A stretch of 64,000 nucleotides of DNA, taken from contig DATKVT010000073.1 of assembly GCA_035529935.1 (NCBI GenBank), forward strand, positions 1 to 64,000, in the 5' to 3' direction. The stretch comes from Williamwhitmania sp. (GTDB lineage: Bacteria > Bacteroidota > Bacteroidia > Bacteroidales > Williamwhitmaniaceae). Positions 42,460 to 50,461 of this stretch are shown here, in pieces; position 1 is the first letter of the stretch, and each line of letters starts with the position of its first letter. Under the pieces are notes generated by a model. That model saw nothing but the letters and a program-made list of their open reading frames with translations. It was not told the origin of the DNA and ran no database searches. The position numbers and the translations under genes were made by a program.

Positions 42460-43058
42460 TGAGCACTAAAATAGCAAACACAGCAGAGCTGGGGCATGTG
42501 GATCATGCTGAAATTAAAACCTTTGGCTTTTGGATATACCTCATGAGCGACCTCGTTCTCTTTTCCATACTCTTTGCCACCTTTGCCGTAATTGGGTTCA
42601 ACTATGCAGGTGGTCCCACCGGAAAGGATTTGTTCGATTTGCCCTACCTGTTTGTTGAAACCATGCTGCTGCTGGTGAGCAGCGCAACCTTTGGGCTGGC
42701 GGTAATTGCTATGCACAACGGCAAGAAAACACAGGTGATTGCTGGATTGGTCGTTACGTTCCTTCTGGGGCTTGGCTTTGTATCCATGGAACTTCATGAG
42801 TTTTATGGGATGATAATGAGCGGAGCGGGTCCCGATCGAAGTGGTTTTCTATCGGCCTTCTTCACACTTGTGGGCACCCACGGACTTCACGTTACCATCG
42901 GCCTGATCTGGATTTTGGTGATGGGGGCGCAGGTTGCCACCATGGGAATGACCGACGGGGTAAAATCGCGGATGGTTCGCCTGAGTATGTTTTGGCACTT
43001 CCTGGATATTGTTTGGATTGGCGTTTTTAGCTTTGTTTACCTCATGGGCGTCATCTAA
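42459..43058 (+). CDS. cyoC: Cytochrome bo3-type quinol oxidase subunit III
   Basis: 199 residues with five predicted transmembrane helices. The N-terminus ([32 protein letters not shown]) and the HEFYGMI...[28 protein letters not shown] segment are typical CyoC/COX3 landmarks. It stabilises subunit I; no redox centres. Third gene of the cyo operon. Confidence 0.95.
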
Positions 43059-43098
43059 GTAGCTGTATTGTTGTTGAACGAATTAAAGAAGCAAAGAT

Positions 43099-43425
43099 AT
43101 GAGTCAAACACATAACGAGGAGATGGGAGCGAGCCATGCAACCGCTAAAACCTATATTATTGGGCTGATATTGGCTGTAACGCTCACCGTTGTATCATTT
43201 GCGCTGGTGATGAGCCATGCCGTTAGCCGGCCGGTTGCCATGGGTGGGCTGTTTCTTGCTGCCATGCTGCAAATGCTGGTGCACCTCTACTACTTTCTGC
43301 ACCTCAACAGGTCGTCGGCAGCACGGTGGAACGTAATTGCCCTGGCCTTTACCGCCCTGCTGCTGTTTATCTTCATTGGCGGAACGCTCTGGGTAATGTA
43401 CACCCTCAACTCGCGGATGATGTAG
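43099..43425 (+). CDS. cyoD: Cytochrome bo3-type quinol oxidase subunit IV
   Basis: 108 residues with three transmembrane helices: KTYIIGLILAVTLTVVSFALVM, VAMGGLFLAAMLQMLVHLYYFLHL and VIALAFTALLLFIFIGGTLWVMYTL. VHLYYFLHL is the CyoD signature. It supports assembly of the CuB centre. Last gene of the operon; no cyoE (haem O synthase) follows, so haem O must come from a gene elsewhere, or the enzyme uses another haem. Confidence 0.94.
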   Translation: MSQTHNEEMGASHATAKTYIIGLILAVTLTVVSFALVMSHAVSRPVAMGGLFLAAMLQMLVHLYYFLHLNRSSAARWNVIALAFTALLLFIFIGGTLWVMYTLNSRMM

Positions 43426-43467
43426 CAAGTGCTGGTGTACAGCTGCCGCACGCATAAATATGTTGGA

Positions 43468-43511
43468 CTGCTCCCATACGCCGAGAGGCTGTGTGGGAGC
43501 AGTTCGTTTTT
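43468..43511 (+). terminator. Intrinsic terminator of the cyo operon
   Basis: CTGCTCCCATAC pairs with GTGTGGGAGCAG (one G-T pair), followed by TTCGTTTTTT, about 45 nt after the cyoD stop. Confidence 0.85.
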
Positions 43512-43696
43512 TGAGAAATAGCCAATTGTTTCTTGTATGATCTTCCCACTTTTAAGTGTAAATGGAAGGCATTCAGCCGATTTACTACGCGCATTGGTAT
43601 GAAGGATTCCCAATTTCGAAGCACCGACCTGTCTCAAATTACACTAAAGTTTATTCGTTGTCGAAATGTTGAAACCATCACCCTACTTGGTCTTTT

Positions 43697-44206
43697 CTAC
43701 CATGCTAATTGATGGTTATATAGCTTCACTTTAATGTCTTTAATTTTTTGGTAAAAGAAGCGTTCAGAAATTCGTATTTCCCTTATGCGTTCTTGCAGTT
43801 CGGTAAAATAGTTCATGGAATTGCCCGACTTGAAACGCTCATCGTTCAATGCAAAGCCTTTTACAATATACTCTTTAAGCCTTTGGGTTGCCCAAATACG
43901 GAACTGCGTACCTTGTTGTGATTTAACCCGGTAGCCAACCGAAATTATAACATCGAGGTTGTAATGGTTTACATCGTAAGTTTTACTATCGTTTGCAGTT
44001 GTCCGGAAATTCCGGACAACTGAATTTTCGTTCAACTCGCCTTCTTTGAAGATGTTGCTAATATGCTCGGATATGGTACGTTTGTCCTTATTAAAAAGCA
44101 TACCCATTTGGGCTTGTGAAAGCCAAACGGTTTCTTCTTCGAGGCGAACATCAATTTTGATGCTGCCTTCTGAGTTTTGGTATATGAGAATTTCGCCTGT
44201 ATTCAT
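43697..44206 (-). pseudogene. Truncated RhuM-family gene
   Basis: 169 residues. The N-terminus matches the virulence RhuM family: ILIYQNSEGSIKIDVRLEEETVWLSQAQMGMLFNKDKRTISEHISNIFKEGEL, then FRIWATQRLKEYIVKGFALNDERFK and ISERFFYQKIKDI. Complete members run to about 330 residues; here the frame changes to KVKLYNHQLAW and stops, so the C-terminal half is missing. The family is common in accessory islands next to restriction or Fic/Doc genes; its function is not established. Starts two bases after the dinD remnant. Confidence 0.75.
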
Positions 44207-44213
44207 GATTAAA

Positions 44214-44422
44214 TTAGTCTTTTTTGCCTTTTATTTTTTCGCGCCTCAGCTTTTCTTCGGTTTGCGTTGTACAGAACATGTTGGCGGCTAAATTCGGTGC
44301 TACCCGTTTGGTCTAGAATGTTTTGGCTCATTTTTTAGGCCTTCCTTTTTATGAATGCCTTTGGCCTTGAGACCACCACATAAGCCCATGTAGCTATGAT
44401 TTTGGAATATAGCATAAACAGG
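44214..44422 (-). pseudogene. dinD: Frameshifted remnant of a dinD gene (DNA-damage-inducible protein D)
   Basis: Read with frame changes, the minus strand gives YMGLCGGLKAKGIHKKEGLK, then SQNILDQTGSTE, then LAANMFCTTQTEEKLRREKIKGKKD and a stop. This is the DinD pattern (GLYGGL-x-x-KDIH ... KKSQ-x-ILD-x-MGSTELAANLFRATQTEEKLRRE). The three blocks lie in different frames and both the N-terminal part and the C-terminal QTHFEVGKKVR part are gone. DinD is a BRO-family SOS protein in E. coli. Decayed gene in the accessory island. Confidence 0.7.
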
Positions 44423-44625
44423 TTCTATAACACCTGCATTGGCAAGCTCAATGGGCCTTAGTATTAACCTTTCCGTTAGTAAGTTCATCTCTCCTGCTAC
44501 TTAGGCTGTTTGCCGTAATGCATTTATCTGTAGCCTAAAATTATGCAATATATCCCAAACTCACGAGCCCGAAATCCATTTCCTACCCATTATTTTGCTC
44601 TCTCCGAAGACCGCTTCTTTTTCTT

Positions 44626-44773
44626 CCGTGAGTTTTGGAAAAAATCTTCACCATCTTTTTTTAAAATCTCCGTGAGTTTTTAAAAAATCTTGCCCAAGAT
44701 TTTTTACGCGGATGCTTAAGGAAATTTACGCGCATACTTATGGAAATTTTCGGCAACACTTATGCGGATTTTG
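44626..44773. repeat. Cluster of short AT-rich repeats
   Basis: A 22-23 base unit beginning CCGTGAGTTTT occurs at 44626-44648 and 44670-44691. The second copy runs into a perfect hairpin (AAAAAATCTT-GCCC-AAGATTTTTT, 44682-44705). Three degenerate tandem units follow (starting 44706, 44728, 44751), sharing ACGCG-n-AT-n-CTTA-n-GGAAATTT. Confidence 0.5.
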
Positions 44774-45170
44774 CTGGATAGGTGTTGCGAGGCGACCGCA
44801 CCATATTAATGGCGAAGTTTTTCGAATTCCTTCGAGAAATGGTGGATGAACCGGTGGGATTTACTTGGAGGGGTGTGAAACGGTTGGCGGTATAAAATCG
44901 TTGGGGGAGTTCGGAGCTACTTCATTATCAACCGAGAAGAATGCACGATGCGAGACAGAATGCCTACTTAAACACGTGATCATCAATGTTTTGTGACCGC
45001 ATGTTACCGCCTGGTGTTCTTTCATCTTTCTTTGTAAACCATTGTCATTATTGAGTTTCCTTGTCATTTTATTTTCTTGCTTATTAGTCGGCTCCTGTGT
45101 CAGCGTTTTTTAATTTTTTTAGTGTTGGCAATTTTTTAAAACAATTTCTCTAGGTGTGTTGGCTTTGCAA

Positions 45171-45224
45171 ACTCTTTGAAAAAGCTTTGGTTGAAGCGTT
45201 GGCTCGTGGGGCTTTGGCAATGTG
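45171..45224. repeat. Left copy of 54-bp direct repeat flanking the DUF262 cassette
   Basis: 45 of 54 bases match 48901-48954 without gaps. The last 28 bases (CGTTGGCTCGTGGGGCTTTG...) differ at one position only. An 8-bp inverted repeat (CTTTGCAA 45163-45170, TTGCAAAG 45226-45233) brackets this copy. Confidence 0.75.
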
Positions 45225-45390
45225 CTTGCAAAGTTCATCGCATTTTGTGTGATTTGAAAAAATTGAAAAGCAAATTTTCATCCACACAATCAAAACGGTT
45301 GTATTGACTATAATGCCTTTCTACAAAAGCATTCACAAAACAATTGTGTTATATGGACTTCTAAACCCTTTTCTGTTGTGTCTATTTTCA

Positions 45391-46260
45391 TCAATGAAAT
45401 TCATAATGACCTTTACAAGCAATAAATGTTACTATATTATTTTCAACTGTATAGCTAAGTCTATCACCATCAGGGTAGCTGTTTGTTACTCTTTTTGATG
45501 CTTCTTTTCCTCTGCCTTTTAAATTTTCAGTCTGTCCCATTCCACCAGTAAAAGGATGAATTTGAACATCTTTCATCAGAAGTAATAAGTATTTAAAAGT
45601 TTTAAAATCATCTTTTTTCCAGTTCAGAAACTGCGTCATAAAATCATCTGTGAATACAGGTTGATACTTTGTAAAACCCAGATACTTTGTCAATATTTCT
45701 TTGGCATCAATGAATTTGGGCATTGACATATCAGCCCATTCTGTTATTTCCTGTGTATTAATATCACTTTCCAAGCAAATATTATAGGCAACAAAGTCAA
45801 TGTTTTCAGTTGCATTCGCGGTGCTTTTTCTGACGATTATTTTTCTATTCCGCCAAAACAAATTAGAATCTAAACTTATTGAAGGAATAGTTTTTATATG
45901 ACTAACTGGCAAGCCAATAGGTTCGGTATCTGTAGGAATATTATCACCAATTAAAGCATAATCACTCTCAAAAAAGGCATCTAATTCAGCTTCTTCCAAT
46001 TCGTCTGTAAATGGCTTTTTGCAAAGGTCAATGATTAAATTCTTAATAGTTCTGTTAGTAAGTGTTGAAACCCATTCAAAGAATGTTTCTGTTGTTGTTA
46101 TTTGAAGTGCAGCGTAATCTTTCGGGAAATGAATATGAGTGAATCCATAAACCTTTTTAGCTTCTTTAAATGTTGCTAAAAGCTTTCTGAAACCAACCTC
46201 TGCAATCTGACCATTCTGTGCAATCGGATAAATTGATAATTCGTTAAATACTAAATTCAT
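45391..46260 (-). CDS. Protein with unknown N-terminal domain and C-terminal YoeB/RelE-type toxin domain
   Basis: 289 residues. Residues 1-200 match no domain I can name (it starts MNLVFNELSIYPIAQ, mixed alpha/beta). From about residue 203 the sequence follows YoeB toxins: WKKDDFKTFKYLLLLMKD, HPFTGGMGQTENLKG, RLSYTVENNIVTFIACKGHY. The YoeB catalytic residues Glu46, Arg59, Arg65, His83 and Tyr84 correspond to Glu245, Arg257, Arg267, His285 and Tyr286. YoeB cuts mRNA at the ribosomal A site. No stand-alone antitoxin is adjacent. The gene is 4 nt after the ATPase gene and is the last of a three-gene operon, so it is the likely effector (inference). Confidence 0.8.
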   Translation of the reverse strand: MNLVFNELSIYPIAQNGQIAEVGFRKLLATFKEAKKVYGFTHIHFPKDYAALQITTTETFFEWVSTLTNRTIKNLIIDLCKKPFTDELEEAELDAFFESDYALIGDNIPTDTEPIGLPVSHIKTIPSISLDSNLFWRNRKIIVRKSTANATENIDFVAYNICLESDINTQEITEWADMSMPKFIDAKEILTKYLGFTKYQPVFTDDFMTQFLNWKKDDFKTFKYLLLLMKDVQIHPFTGGMGQTENLKGRGKEASKRVTNSYPDGDRLSYTVENNIVTFIACKGHYEFH

Positions 46261-46264
46261 AGGA

Positions 46265-47617
46265 CTACAAAAGTTTTAATAATTGGTTACTCCATTCGTC
46301 CATCATGTTTTCGGGATAATCACTTAACTCTCCACTGCTATCAACTTTTATAGGCGTGATTTTCGTATATTGCTCTTTCTCGGTGGTAGTCTTTTCAAAA
46401 TACATTACATTGACTTTGGATTTATCAATATCTCCTTCTTTTACTGCAACTCTGATTCCATTTAAAATATGGTCACTATGTGTTTCGATAAATAATTGTG
46501 CTCCAAGGCTTGCTGCTAAAGAAATAAGCTTACCCAATTGTGCTTGACCTCTTGGGTGTATGTGCGATTCAGGGTTTTCTATAACTATGATTTTGCCTTC
46601 TTCTGCAGTAAGTAATGCCAAAACTATTGGTAATACATATGAAATTCCGAAACCAACATTTTTTGGTCGGAACGAGTTGGTTTTTTGATTGCCATAATCA
46701 AATTGATAATCCAGAATTACTTTGTTAACTTCGGGAACGTATTTGGTATTTAATGAAACACCTGGAGAAATTTCTGTAAGCCACGCATTAATTTGTGCAA
46801 GCAATTTTTCAGATTTAGCAGAAGGGTGTCTAAGTTGTTCTCCAACAATATGTTCAAGCCCAAATATATCAATATAGTGGGCAGCAAATTCTCCTAGTAA
46901 TCCTAATTGTTTTTTATCCTCAACAACTATGCTGGATGACTCATATAAATCTTTAGGGCCAATCCGTTCTGCACTTAGGTATTGAAACTTTTTGGTCTGG
47001 GATCTAAAAAACCCCATAGCCGTTTTAGTATACTTTTCTTTAGAAATCAGTTTGTCTTTATCTTTTTGATATAAGAATTTCCACTTAAAAGTATTATATA
47101 TTGCTTTTTCAAATTGTGCCTTATTATTTTTTTGTTTATGCTCAATAATTAAACCTGAAGAAATTAATAAATCCTTAGTATTATAAAATGTAGCTTTACT
47201 GATATGAGAAGATTCGGCCATTCTTAAATATAAAGCGTCAATGTCAAAAGCACCGTCTATGGAATAAATTTCTTTTAAAATAGCAAATCTCTCAGGAGTT
47301 TTTCTTTGATTAGTGCCGTCTAAATATTTAGTAAAGATCTTTTCTATTGAATTGTAGTCAAATTCTAAATGAAGATAAATAATATCTTCTGAAGCAAACT
47401 GATACAATGCATCTTTACCTTGACCAATTTTTGCCAATAAGCCATTAAGATCAATTACACCATCCTCCAATTTGTCACTTTGCATTAGCAAAAGCAAGGT
47501 TTGTATGAACGAACTTTTACCCATTCCATTTAATCCCATCAACAGATTTAAGTTTGAAATACTTACATTAGCCACTTTAAGGGATTTGAAATTCTGGATT
47601 TCAATTTGTTTTATCAT
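46265..47617 (-). CDS. DUF3696-type AAA ATPase with inserted Fur-like winged-helix domain
   Basis: 450 residues. The ABC/SMC-like ATPase starts IKQIEIQNFKSL, with Walker A GLNGMGKSS (28-36), Walker B IIVIENPESHIHP (343-355) and H-loop ETHSDHILNGIR (378-389). It ends with the DUF3696 tail (IKVDSSGELSDYPENMMDEW). Between residues about 104 and 172 sits a segment that reads as the DNA-binding domain of a Bacteroidota Fur protein (RKTPERFAILKEIY, DIDALYLRM, ISKATFYNTKDLLISSGLI), without the Fur metal-binding C-terminal half. It overlaps the DUF262 gene by 4 nt. Probable ATP-driven sensor or regulator of the operon's effector. Confidence 0.85.
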   Translation of the reverse strand: MIKQIEIQNFKSLKVANVSISNLNLLMGLNGMGKSSFIQTLLLLMQSDKLEDGVIDLNGLLAKIGQGKDALYQFASEDIIYLHLEFDYNSIEKIFTKYLDGTNQRKTPERFAILKEIYSIDGAFDIDALYLRMAESSHISKATFYNTKDLLISSGLIIEHKQKNNKAQFEKAIYNTFKWKFLYQKDKDKLISKEKYTKTAMGFFRSQTKKFQYLSAERIGPKDLYESSSIVVEDKKQLGLLGEFAAHYIDIFGLEHIVGEQLRHPSAKSEKLLAQINAWLTEISPGVSLNTKYVPEVNKVILDYQFDYGNQKTNSFRPKNVGFGISYVLPIVLALLTAEEGKIIVIENPESHIHPRGQAQLGKLISLAASLGAQLFIETHSDHILNGIRVAVKEGDIDKSKVNVMYFEKTTTEKEQYTKITPIKVDSSGELSDYPENMMDEWSNQLLKLL

Positions 47618-48744
47618 GCTTCTAATGTTTCTTTTATTATTCTCTCAATACTTGAAAAACGATAATAAACACTTCCTTTATTACCTGTTGATGTAGTAAT
47701 ACTATTAAAAAAAGCCAAATCCTCTTTTATAAGTTTAATTGATTTCCCAAACAAAATATCTTTCTTGATAAGCAATTGTATTCTCTGATTTTCATCAAGT
47801 TTAGCAAGTGAAACACTCCAAATTTCAAATAATGCTTTGTTTATTGGTTTTCTCTTTTCAGGATATTTGTCTGATTTACGAAAAGCCCAATTGCCAAATA
47901 TCTTTTTAGTTAATATCATTGATGCTGAAAAATCGCTCTTCATTTTTTCTCTTTCTGAGTTTGAGAGTTTTTTAATATCACCCATACAGGAATTCATAAA
48001 AGTATCTAAATCAGGAATGTAATTTTCATAATTATTCAAATAGAAAGTAATAAATCTTGTAACAAATTCTCTGTCCAACATTCGTTTTGGACTAATTGCC
48101 CCTTGTGTAGCTTCAATAAATTCAGGAAGTTGTGACAATTCTTTTACATAAATTGCAGGAATTCCCTGATTCATAGCGTGACGGATTTCTTGAGGTTCCA
48201 TTATCAATCCTCCTGTATTTACCCGCCTGAAAATATTGAACTTTACTTCTTCTGGCGTCCCAGGATTAATGACATAGGCTGTAATTTGAGCTTCTTCAAT
48301 TTGTCGCTGAAGGTTTCTTGGAAGGTCGTCAAATCCATCCCCTTCAAGTTTTTTCAAAAATTCAAGGCCGGTTAGCTTCAGTCTTTTATTTATTGTAAAA
48401 TTCCTAATGGCACTAAGGCGTTGAAGTCCATCTACAACTAACCATTTGTCATTGTCTGTTCCGTCAAAATAAAAGGCAGGCAATGGAAATTTAATTAGTA
48501 AGGATTCTATTAATCGACTTTGTTTGCCAGCATCCCACAAATCATCCTTTCGTTGAAAATCAGGATACAAATCTATTTCTGGTGGATCTGTTTTTAACCT
48601 CTTTATTAATAAATCAATTGTAAGTGTCTTAGTCGATATATCAATTTGTGAAGGATTAAATGGTCTCTCCATCAAAACCCCTGTATTTATGTCCTCATAC
48701 TCCACTTGAGGCTCATCAACTATATAATTGCTTTCTTCTTGCAT
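47614..48744 (-). CDS. DUF262 (GmrS/ParB-like) protein
   Basis: 376 residues. DUF262 landmarks: DFQRKDDLWDAGKQSRLIESLL (about 64-85), the VVDGLQRLSAIRNF motif (D-G-x-Q-R, about 103-116) and FRRVNTGGLIMEPQEIRHA (about 175-193). This fold is shared with ParB/Srx proteins and with the N-terminal part of GmrSD restriction enzymes, where it binds and hydrolyses NTPs. There is no DUF1524/HNH nuclease domain, so it is not a complete GmrSD enzyme. First gene of the three-gene operon; its stop overlaps the ATPase start. Confidence 0.87.
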   Translation of the reverse strand: MQEESNYIVDEPQVEYEDINTGVLMERPFNPSQIDISTKTLTIDLLIKRLKTDPPEIDLYPDFQRKDDLWDAGKQSRLIESLLIKFPLPAFYFDGTDNDKWLVVDGLQRLSAIRNFTINKRLKLTGLEFLKKLEGDGFDDLPRNLQRQIEEAQITAYVINPGTPEEVKFNIFRRVNTGGLIMEPQEIRHAMNQGIPAIYVKELSQLPEFIEATQGAISPKRMLDREFVTRFITFYLNNYENYIPDLDTFMNSCMGDIKKLSNSEREKMKSDFSASMILTKKIFGNWAFRKSDKYPEKRKPINKALFEIWSVSLAKLDENQRIQLLIKKDILFGKSIKLIKEDLAFFNSITTSTGNKGSVYYRFSSIERIIKETLEA

Positions 48745-48755
48745 TATTCTACACT

Positions 48756-48848
48756 TTAAAATACAAACTTATAATATTTCTTCATAACCGCTTCATTAGT
48801 CATCATCTCTTTGTATTCTCTAATTAGTTCAATTTTATCTTTTACAAT
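48756..48848 (-). pseudogene. Short open-frame remnant upstream of the DUF262 gene
   Basis: After a TAG at 48849-48851 a frame of 30 codons runs to TAA (48756-48758), reading IVKDKIELIREYKEM...MKKYYKFVF, charged and helical like the tail of a larger protein. It has internal Met codons but no upstream start. It may be the surviving 3-prime end of a lost gene or chance. Not assigned to a family. Confidence 0.25.
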
Positions 48849-48900
48849 CTAATAATTTGCGAAAGCGTCAGCCTAGAACTGTGTGAGTTGGTAAGATTGC

Positions 48901-48954
48901 ACTCTTTGACAAAACATTTGTTATGACGTTGGCTCGTAGGGCTTTGGCAATGTG
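48901..48954. repeat. Right copy of 54-bp direct repeat flanking the DUF262 cassette
   Basis: Matches 45171-45224 at 45 of 54 positions, in the same orientation, 3730 bp away. The three genes lie between the two copies. Confidence 0.75.
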
Positions 48955-49290
48955 TCGATAATAATTTTAAAAAATGTGAGGTAGGCAAAAGAAATACATC
49001 GGATCGGTTTGAGTGCTGGCTTTCTTTTTTTCAAAATTTCGTTATTCAGTCCTTTCACAATGGTTTACTTTTTATTATTTCACTGTCATCTGTTGTACAC
49101 TTGGCGGGAACTCATTTATAACCCCAACAAAGATGAGCTCATCCACCCAATTTGGTATGTATGACCCCACCTTTTAGTGTGGTTTATTTCCAATACAAGT
49201 TAGAAAAACTTTTCCTTGAGTGGGCTATAAACTTAATTTTTAATGAGATTTATACCTTAAGCATATCGGGTTGCTAAGACTAGCCACAAA
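48955..49290. other. Intergenic tail of the accessory island
   Basis: AT-rich sequence between the right direct repeat and the mscL terminator. No gene, RNA or repeat recognised. Confidence 0.5.
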
Positions 49291-49326
49291 AAAATCCCGT
49301 GAACTCATCTGGGTTCACAGGATTTT
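49291..49326 (-). terminator. Intrinsic terminator after mscL
   Basis: AAAATCCCGTGAAC pairs with GTTCACAGGATTTT (one mismatch) across 8 nt; on the minus strand it ends in a T run. Confidence 0.8.
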
Positions 49327-49360
49327 GTATAGCCTTCAAGTTCTGCTGCGTAATGCTTAT

Positions 49361-49765
49361 TTACTTCTTCAGCAGGTCGCGAATTTCGGTGAGCAGTATC
49401 TCCTCCTTGGTGGGGGCTGGAGGAGCGGGTGGTGCTGCGGGTGCCGCCTCCTTCCGCTTGGCGGCATTCATGGCCTTAATCACCATAAAAATGGCAAAGG
49501 CAACAATCAAAAAATCGAAGGTAACCTGCAGAAAGTTACCGTAGTTTAGGGTAACGGCGGGGCTTGTCTCGGTGGCCGCCTTCATCACAACCTTGAGGTC
49601 AGAGAATCTTACTCCACCAACCAGCAGCCCAATGGGTGGCATTACAATGTCGGTTACAATGGAGCTTACAATCTTGCCAAAGGCGGCTCCAACTATAATA
49701 CCCACTGCCATGTCGATAGCGTTGCCCTTCATGGCAAACGCTTTGAATTCACTTATAATTTTCAT
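49361..49765 (-). CDS. mscL: Large-conductance mechanosensitive channel
   Basis: 134 residues. TM1 segment [33 protein letters not shown] is the MscL pore helix, and TM2 is [24 protein letters not shown] short Ala/Pro linker leads to the cytoplasmic helix [15 protein letters not shown]. It opens under membrane tension to release solutes during osmotic downshock. Monocistronic. Confidence 0.96.
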
Positions 49766-49924
49766 CGTGGTTAATATTTAGTGCGATGTAATCTAAAGTT
49801 CAATGTTGCAGGCATTGCATTTGCCAACCCAATTATAACCACAATAGGCAGTTAATGTTCTGTGGGATAGCTATTCGGGAGAATTTTATCCTTCTCCTTT
49901 AGTGTTCAACTTGGAAGGAAACAG

Positions 49925-50461
49925 CTACTCCTCAAACAGCGATAGCTGGTGCGGTGCTCCGGTGGCCTCTAGGTTTAGCAACTTGCGCTTGGCAGGTAAC
50001 CCTCCGGCGTAGCCCACCAGCTCGCCCTTGCTGCCCACAATGCGGTGGCAGGGCACAATTATGGCTATGGCGTTGGCACCGTTCGCCGAGGCTACGGCTC
50101 TTATGGCCTTGGGGTTGTTGAGGCATTTGGAAAGACCAAGGTAGGTTTCGGTTTTGCCGTAAGGTATTTCGAGAAGGGCGTTCCACACGCCTTGCTGAAA
50201 GGGCGTTCCCACCATCAGCAGCGGTAGGTCGAACTCCTTTCGCTTGCCAGCGAAATATTCGGTAAGTTGGGCCTTGGCGCGTTCAATTACAGGAGTTTCG
50301 GCAGGGAGGTAGGTGGCCTCCAGCCCTTCGGTAATGCGGGCATCCACCTCGGTGCGCATTTTGCGGTAGCGCCAGTCGCACAGGCAGAGCTTGTCGCCAA
50401 AGGAGCCCAGTATAAGCTCTCCCACCGGAGTGGCAAGGTAGTCGATGTAAATGCTGTTCAT
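49925..50461 (-). CDS. ogt: Methylated-DNA--protein-cysteine methyltransferase
   Basis: 178 residues. The acceptor Cys138 lies in IIVPCHRIVG, with GTPFQQGVWNALLEIPYGKT and RAVASANGANA upstream (DNA-binding helix-turn-helix with Arg finger). It removes methyl groups from O6-methylguanine in a suicide reaction. The N-terminal ribonuclease-like domain (IDYLATPVGELILGSFGDKL) is present, so it is an Ogt-type enzyme without an AdaA part. Confidence 0.95.
   Translation of the reverse strand: MNSIYIDYLATPVGELILGSFGDKLCLCDWRYRKMRTEVDARITEGLEATYLPAETPVIERAKAQLTEYFAGKRKEFDLPLLMVGTPFQQGVWNALLEIPYGKTETYLGLSKCLNNPKAIRAVASANGANAIAIIVPCHRIVGSKGELVGYAGGLPAKRKLLNLEATGAPHQLSLFEE

Follow-up and report, generated by a model that had tools for sequence, protein, structure and literature searches.

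A YoeB-type Menshen operon with a Fur-type insert in its ATPase, apparently carried as an operon cassette of an integron-like array in Williamwhitmania

The window analysed here, a stretch of 64,000 nucleotides (nt) from a Williamwhitmania genome (GenBank assembly GCA_035529935.1, contig DATKVT010000073.1, positions 1 to 64,000), holds at positions 45391-48744 three minus-strand genes that belong to the defence family named Menshen (NsnABC) or ptuXYZ, and that appear to be carried as one cassette of an integron-like array. An earlier annotation made without database searches (the sequence-only reading) had described the trio correctly in its outlines: the open reading frame (ORF) list gives three ORFs joined by a 4-nt overlap and a 4-nt gap, they are richer in AT than their neighbours (GC content 29-35% vs 46-55% in the flanking core genes), and Pfam recovers the domains that had been predicted. 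The first gene, nsnA/ptuX (47614..48744, minus strand; ORF list, Pfam, PADLOC), encodes 376 amino acids (aa) with a ParB-like, NTP-binding domain (GmrSD_N/DUF262, PF03235, 6.8e-19) and the motif VDGLQR at residues 104-109. The second, nsnB/ptuY (46265..47617, minus strand), encodes an SMC/OLD/PtuA-type ABC ATPase of 450 aa (AAA_15, 5.5e-29) with a DUF3696 end (2.2e-9), which keeps the Walker A, signature, Walker B and H-loop motifs. The third, nsnC/ptuZ (45391..46260, minus strand), encodes 289 aa composed of a conserved N-terminal half, putatively an adaptor, and a C-terminal toxin domain, identified by Pfam (YoeB, 6.3e-11) and by structure comparison as a YoeB-type RNase domain (residues 203-286; 45403..45654, minus strand). 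The trio stands between two direct repeats (54 nt, 83% identical), which the sequence-only reading had rightly noticed: copy 1 (48901..48954, plus strand) is the core of a right end (RE) and copy 2 (45171..45224, plus strand) the core of a left end (LE). Two features had escaped it, namely that these repeats are the ends of a cassette and that the ATPase carries a Fur-type insert.

Searches with PADLOC profiles matched NsnA to PDLC03877 (5.6e-132, residues 15-375 of 376), NsnB to PDLC03878 (1.4e-105 over residues 1-450) and NsnC, by its N-terminal residues 1-180 only, to PDLC03895 (1.3e-29). We take the Nsn genes to be those of the Menshen system, which is said to go back to Millman et al. 2022; no paper naming both Menshen and an Nsn gene was found in the literature searched. 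Under the name ptuXYZ, the available part of PMC11980606 (2025) presents 17 operons made up of a DUF262 protein (PtuX, there called a putative nuclease), a PtuA-like ATPase and a PIN-like/YoeB protein, and Menshen is mentioned nowhere in the text of that paper. The window operon has the same make-up in the same order, i.e. a DUF262 protein without DUF1524, a PtuA-like ATPase and a YoeB-type C-terminal domain. Because the Nsn matches and this published architecture have to be taken together, ptuXYZ is, on sequence grounds, the YoeB branch of Menshen; the trio is of a known kind, and what is new in it is the Fur-type insert in the ATPase. The sequence-only reading had proposed an undescribed defence system and had itself called for a profile search; as this search returned a named system (in the matches to NsnA, NsnB and NsnC), and as ptuXYZ is already published, that proposal is ruled out. 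Its other proposal, that the operon serves defence through a YoeB effector at the C-terminus of the third protein, is supported by the PADLOC names, by the swapping of effectors among relatives and by the catalytic residues of the YoeB-type members.

The composition of the operon was followed in the 34 loci that a search with NsnA had returned. In 32 of them the genes for NsnA and NsnB are adjacent, which bears out the co-occurrence that the sequence-only reading wanted checked, and a core-genome context was not seen among them. An NsnC ORF scoring above 40 bits follows in 30 (the exceptions being L007 and L011, without an NsnC above 40 bits, L034, which is truncated, and L035, where no NsnB was found), and in four loci (L015, L017, L020 and L026) the NsnC ORF as called overlaps nsnB. 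YoeB was matched by Pfam in 8 of the 75 third-gene proteins collected (the window, L002, L003, L004, L006, L040, L056 and L065). The NsnB proteins of L064 and L045 are 78% and 75% identical to that of the window over residues 177-450, and the C-terminal part of their NsnC differs from the window's YoeB; likewise, the NsnB of L005 is 77% identical overall, yet its NsnC ends differently. Since relatives thus share the front half of NsnC and differ in its back half, with YoeB in so small a fraction, the N-terminal half appears to be an adaptor common to them, and the C-terminal half an effector that can be exchanged. Residues E245, R267, H285 and Y286 of the window NsnC stand at the YoeB catalytic positions (the sequence-only reading had placed His285 and Tyr286 correctly), where we assume that they act as in YoeB, and Glu, Arg, His and Tyr are kept there in all eight YoeB-type proteins. 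The model of NsnC (mean predicted local distance difference test, pLDDT, 89.2) has the BECR fold and superposes on solved YoeB structures with Z 13.0-13.3 and a root-mean-square deviation of 1.9-2.2 Å over 82-83 residues. As to the remaining 67 third-gene proteins, none matches YoeB and Pfam finds hardly any other family in them; their ends include a conserved TTGRNxRET-type end and a GRIHFR...YIG end, which are probably further effector classes.

The model of the ATPase NsnB (AlphaFold, mean pLDDT 82.2) is closest to a chain of a Retron-Eco8 complex, SMC heads and PtuA (hexamer chains) also being listed. Against the 365 aa of its five nearest relatives in the alignment (69-77% identical), NsnB is 85 aa longer, a difference that consists mainly of the insert, residues 93-173 (47096..47341, minus strand). 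These 81 residues lie in frame at a predicted beta-hairpin turn and match the N-terminal, winged-helix DNA-binding half of Fur (PF01475, 1.5e-6, 28.8 bits, cut-off 23.1; 30.4 bits in a genome-wide profile search), without its metal-binding half. The only other above-cut-off Fur match in the genome, the host Fur itself, is 52% identical to the insert over 84 aa. None of the other 19 NsnB in the alignment has the insert; when it was searched for in 1803 ORFs (101 loci and the window), only the window copies and the host Fur matched, and no match was obtained against 97 proteins carried by other cassettes with the same ends, though Pfam finds FUR in three of them. We consider that the insert probably adds a contact to DNA or to the operon's own promoter. 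It might instead be a passenger, i.e. a neutral insertion that left the ATPase working or broke it, as would fit its presence in one genome only, its age (being only 52% identical to the host Fur, it is not fresh) and a turn that may simply tolerate insertions, since a distant NsnB (L062) carries other, non-Fur extra residues at the same place; as the insert lies in frame at the hairpin turn and still scores above the Pfam cut-off, and as the ATPase motifs around it are kept, we regard a passenger as somewhat unlikely. Within the Menshen operon the Fur-type insert is new; Li et al. 2025 (on Menshen domain polymorphism) may already describe YoeB ends or inserts.

The course of events that we infer for an abortive anti-phage system of this make-up begins with a sensor and switch, which the ABC ATPase NsnB would form together with NsnA and its ParB-like NTP-binding fold, and with the N-terminal half of NsnC, which would dock on them and keep the YoeB domain inactive. 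Upon infection, NsnA/NsnB would recognise phage DNA or a host disturbance, an ATP-driven change would free or activate YoeB, and YoeB would cut mRNA on the ribosome, stopping the infected cell; the winged helix in the ATPase turn would contribute the added DNA or own-promoter contact. The accessible part of the review PMC10952713 states that mutation or deletion of the DUF262 gene ended Menshen resistance. The same genes could be read as a three-gene toxin-antitoxin (TA)-like or stress module, in which NsnA/NsnB restrain YoeB and release it on starvation or DNA damage, phage defence being secondary: type II TA modules include YoeB as a ribosome-dependent RNase (part of PMC11980606) and TA pairs are known in integron cassettes (part of PMC8618304). 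We find this reading unlikely, as NsnB relatives precede many unrelated third genes and are listed by PADLOC as defence, and as a defence profile is matched by the largest protein in six of ten other cassettes that have such ends. Still less probable is a reading in which a nuclease activity of NsnA or of NsnB does the killing, as in OLD/Gabija-type systems, with YoeB as a helper; the review, as far as accessible, does name a predicted OLD/TOPRIM nuclease as the Menshen partner, and PtuX is the putative nuclease of ptuXYZ, but Pfam finds no TOPRIM in NsnB and no DUF1524 in NsnA, and NsnB ends ~70 residues past the H-loop, with DUF3696.

The proposed YoeB-effector defence operon lies between conserved ends that extend around the repeat cores (LE 44879-45237; RE 48887 to ~49111-49131). 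On the operon strand the cassette starts in RE (48887..49111, minus strand; conserved over ~225 nt that include the shared core once) with GTTCCCGCC... and closes in LE (45003..45237, minus strand) with GGCGGTAAC, 8 of whose 9 bases pair with the start of the same cassette; the 50-nt core shared by both ends has the same orientation in each and is enclosed by different stems, and it might act as a leader, a terminator or a second site of recombination. The direct repeat occurs at only these two places in its own genome, while its 27-nt core (up to 3 mismatches) was found in 19 of 149 genomes of the order, the own genome included, and a reversed control pattern gave no match in the same 149. 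The 27-nt core had 0 exact matches in viral contigs, although NsnB relatives with adjacent NsnA occur there, and two 15-letter pieces of the repeat were not found in the literature searched. LE and RE bound other genes in other genomes, forming 23 LE-cargo-RE units (the window included) with 0.7-19.0 kilobases (kb) between the ends; units form tandem arrays in which one unit's RE abuts the LE of the next (a series of five in genome G418), and each, on the operon strand, starts with GTT..., ends with ...AAC and is followed by a hairpin.

The start of an integron cassette pairs with its own R'', and the same relation holds here. In 19 of the 23 units, i.e. those with both ends scoring at least 80 bits (G458C57, G421C45, G490C5 and G459C646 being omitted), the first 9-mer pairs with the unit's own last 9-mer at 106 of 114 variable positions, perfectly so in 14 units; shuffling gave a mean of 64.3, and none of 20,000 shuffles reached 106. 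A second set, comprising all 13 neighbouring site pairs from six recombinase loci (four one-site loci gave none), yielded 13 further cassettes in which 77 of 78 end positions pair (shuffled mean 31.7; 0 of 20,000 shuffles). The cassettes between neighbouring model hits beside recombinases measure 0.5-2.7 kb. An empty site was sought in the same genus, where genome G473 offers no clean one because the window's two right-hand neighbours lie on different contigs.

The hairpin that follows the window operon is an attC-like site (44873..45017, minus strand; 92.6 bits, this copy being part of the model training set). An alignment of 29 such sites comprises 18 pairs, every one of which has changed on both sides in part of the sequences; hairpin cells are paired in 90.6% of cases (60.1% when shuffled, 32-42% with slid partners) and double-change cells number 146 vs 45.7, figures that come from a structure derived from the same alignment. 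Folded as single copies, five strands of four array sites gave z values of -2.8 to -4.4 against shuffles, while of the two end sites of L122 one is more stable than its shuffles (-3.67) and the other is not (-1.14). A covariance model built from this alignment, with the R boxes left unpaired, gave hits at E up to 1e-6 in 88 of the 149 genomes searched in the order, among them at least 20 in the own genome; as about 21 candidates were scored per genome, site copy numbers are lower bounds. In locus L005 two attC-like sites enclose the NsnABC genes, and the end pair matches at 9 of 9 bases; L003 has sites on one flank and an LE end on the opposite one. In both loci, which hold near relatives (L005:4348-10424 and L003:7001-13153), NsnABC is flanked by what we take to be type I restriction genes (HsdM and HsdS before, HsdR after; in L005 these too lie between the two sites), and the trio may therefore be nested there in another defence operon.

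As for the enzyme that would move these cassettes, an integron integrase above the family cut-off was present in 1 of 27 genomes searched (G401), and what stands beside the arrays are other tyrosine recombinases with a W-rich N-terminal part. AttC-like sites lie 3' of the recombinase gene and on the same strand in 10 of 20 recombinase loci, compared with 0 of 20 Xer-type controls; these loci are the best TIGR02249 matches outside G401, a nearby site was already known at six, and training copies are among the sites (one in L202, two of three in L195), so that without both loci the count is 8 of 18. Eight of the ten site-free loci have less than 2 kb of contig on the array side, and some control loci are short too. 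In G539 the recombinase gene ends ~165 nt from the first cassette, and in the own genome one such recombinase is followed by five sites (L190). Three array recombinases score 217-221 bits for TIGR02249 against a cut-off of 265, in two pieces (5-179 and 239-315) that skip the IntI-specific region, and one of the three, L166, passes NF040815 (XerA / 'integron integrase') with 226.5 vs 220. The gap between the KDR and HxLRH motifs is 62 residues in five array recombinases and 68 and 70 in two Xer-type ones, a comparison that stands without the true IntI of L164 (missed by the script). The array recombinases of L166, L168, L130 and L190 are 374-587 aa long, several lying at contig ends on the array side, and in three proteins scanned the W-rich N-terminal extension matched no Pfam family above cut-off. 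The consensus of integron R boxes is RYYYAAC / GTTRRRY; in the present sites GTT and AAC are nearly constant and the inner bases are free. PMC9668308, in its available part, treats the IntI-specific domain as defining, and we say 'integron-like' rather than integron because the array recombinase is below the integrase cut-off and is without that domain.

No recombinase stands beside the window array. A possible attI-like sequence just before the cassette (49112..49150, minus strand) resembles by eye the sequence between recombinase and first cassette in L132. In L122, L124 and L166, all of G458, the ~150 nt before the first cassette are nearly identical by eye and contain the palindrome GATACCCGCAATATGCGGGTATAC, one copy adjoining a recombinase; this is likely to be an attI in several copies. 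That the repeat-bounded units are transposons with long inverted ends and a transposase acting in trans, as might be suggested by LE and RE being partly inverted repeats of each other (by eye) and by the 25 listed Pfam families of the cargo (out of 92), which include neither a transposase nor a recombinase, is improbable, as the 9-mer ends of each unit pair mutually while differing between neighbours, RE and LE touch in tandem arrays, covarying hairpins stand between units, and the smaller cassettes beside tyrosine recombinases have the same hairpins.

The cargo of the integron-like cassettes runs mostly one way, with 107 of 110 ORFs in the 22 units other than the window running from RE to LE. 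We scanned 97 of 108 cargo ORFs (11 were omitted as duplicates by equal or similar length, and 2 of the 110 spanned fetch borders) and obtained matches to 416 PADLOC families at 1e-10, compared with 193 for 107 of 108 randomly drawn ORFs (one of ~3,700 aa being omitted), numbers that count families rather than proteins and carry no formal test. A smaller background set of 97 ORFs gave 62 families; seven of the 11 ORFs omitted from it come from L127, a Menshen locus of G458 that had been chosen for its defence genes. The most frequent cargo families are type II/IIG restriction, MADS, Mokosh, type I and III methylases, Septu and BREX. In ten units picked, we compared the largest protein with defence profiles at 1e-30; six gave a match (a type IIG restriction-modification protein, a type II methylase, BrxC, PtuA, MkoC and ZorD) and four gave none, such matches being to single proteins and not to complete systems. 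A pooled Pfam scan also lists metal-efflux families (ACR_tran, cation efflux, HMA). According to the accessible part of PMC8618304, integron cassettes generally hold one ORF, which makes operon-sized cassettes unusual. The largest ones, L128 and L145, both on contig C3 of G418, measure 19 and 11 kb, and one unit there has two runs of seven ORFs of equal lengths.

Around the operon, the decayed island described by the sequence-only reading is borne out by a shortened RhuM-family gene (43697..44206, minus strand, as is the operon; ORF list, Pfam, PADLOC), which we identify as the gene of a remnant cassette, and by a second, decayed attC-like site at its end (43580..43718, minus strand; 32.5 bits, E 9.8e-6, not in the training set). 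A TAnnTTTG word (48764..48771, minus strand), which we take to be the Bacteroidota -7 promoter consensus, stands ~20 nt before the nsnA start codon and is a possible own promoter; in the window this word is no more frequent than expected by chance. An Rfam search of positions 43000-50000 gave no match at E up to 1.

Taken together, these observations lead us to read the trio as a YoeB-effector Menshen (NsnABC/ptuXYZ) abortive anti-phage system carried as an operon cassette of an integron-like array, to which we give a probability of about 0.6. Several points weigh against it. On the side of function, NsnB has no TOPRIM match in Pfam, though the review (in its available part) links Menshen to an OLD/TOPRIM nuclease, without saying for which subtype, and a phage assay of this operon or of the YoeB-type branch was not found in the literature searched. 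NsnC stays below the NCBIfam Txe/YoeB equivalog cut-off (37.1 vs 51.8 bits), and we therefore speak of a YoeB-type domain and not of a Txe/YoeB protein. The structure search with the NsnC model aligned residues 192-289 only and returned no row for the N-terminal half, which is no evidence of a new fold. AlphaFold confidence is low at the insert (pLDDT 38-57). On the side of the carrier, the window end pair carries its one mismatch, and, taken alone, neither the window end site nor the two attC-like sites (z ~0) fold better than shuffles, so that the case rests on the set and not on the window copy. Moreover, among 17 Menshen loci scanned (10 of which cover less than 4 kb, L045 being part of L127) sites were found only at L003 and L005, none lies in L127 (16 kb around a close relative) and none in 28 more distant Menshen loci; the cassette setting is thus not general for Menshen.

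Beyond the window, we lean slightly towards the view that one Bacteroidota order carries a widespread and unrecognised integron-like class, with a tyrosine recombinase that is W-rich at its N-terminus and lacks the domain specific to IntI, attC-like hairpins of ~140 nt, small cassettes, and operon cassettes with conserved ends (Menshen, and operons with BREX, Septu, Mokosh, Zorya, restriction and metal-efflux genes), the window operon being one of the latter with an evolved Fur-type DNA-binding insert. The available part of PMC9024848 (IntegronFinder 2.0) reports one complete integron in Bacteroidetes proper (Salinibacter), where before there were only In0 elements, and Bacteroidota are listed among the integron-bearing phyla in the accessible parts of PMC8618304 (a perspective) and PMC9668308. 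A platform of the present kind was not found in the literature searched, and work outside that literature is possible; judging by sequence pattern, we see in the carrier what looks like an integron-like platform of Bacteroidota that has so far gone unrecognised. If so, a platform for whole operons (defence, metal resistance) would help to explain how defence islands are built in Bacteroidota, and it would put to the test how far recombination at folded single-stranded sites really requires the IntI-specific domain. Furthermore, the assignment places the ptuXYZ operons of the literature within a defence system that has a name, and presents the third Menshen gene as what looks like a swappable effector, with His285 and the Fur insert as direct test points.

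Compared with known systems, the trio resembles Menshen (NsnABC) in having three genes in the same order, nearly full-length NsnA and NsnB profile matches and a highly varied third gene, and it differs in that the YoeB end of NsnC lies outside the matched part of the PADLOC profile (residues 1-180) and in that NsnB has a Fur insert and no TOPRIM match. With ptuXYZ it shares the DUF262 protein, the PtuA-like ATPase and a third protein with a YoeB-type C-terminal part, which in ptuXYZ follows a PIN-like one; the ATPase insert goes unmentioned in the operon section of PMC11980606, in whose available text the word 'winged' does not occur. Cami1, solved with bound cA4 on the 70S ribosome (8phj), is similar as a larger ribosome-acting protein with a RelE/YoeB-fold domain, though its match to NsnC residues 192-289 has Z 6.8 (a Z below 8 may mean only a common arrangement), and it binds a cyclic nucleotide within one protein, whereas the switch of the window system would be NsnA/NsnB. 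The arrays, finally, share with integrons the tandem cassettes, the hairpin after each as presumed recombination site, a start complementary to the cassette's own R'', a tyrosine recombinase beside the array and genes on the same strand; they differ in R boxes that keep GTTR...YAAC only, in a recombinase that scores below the integron-integrase cut-off, has no IntI-specific insertion and is extended by a W-rich N-terminal part, and in one cassette type that carries up to 19 kb between conserved ends of 225-360 nt.

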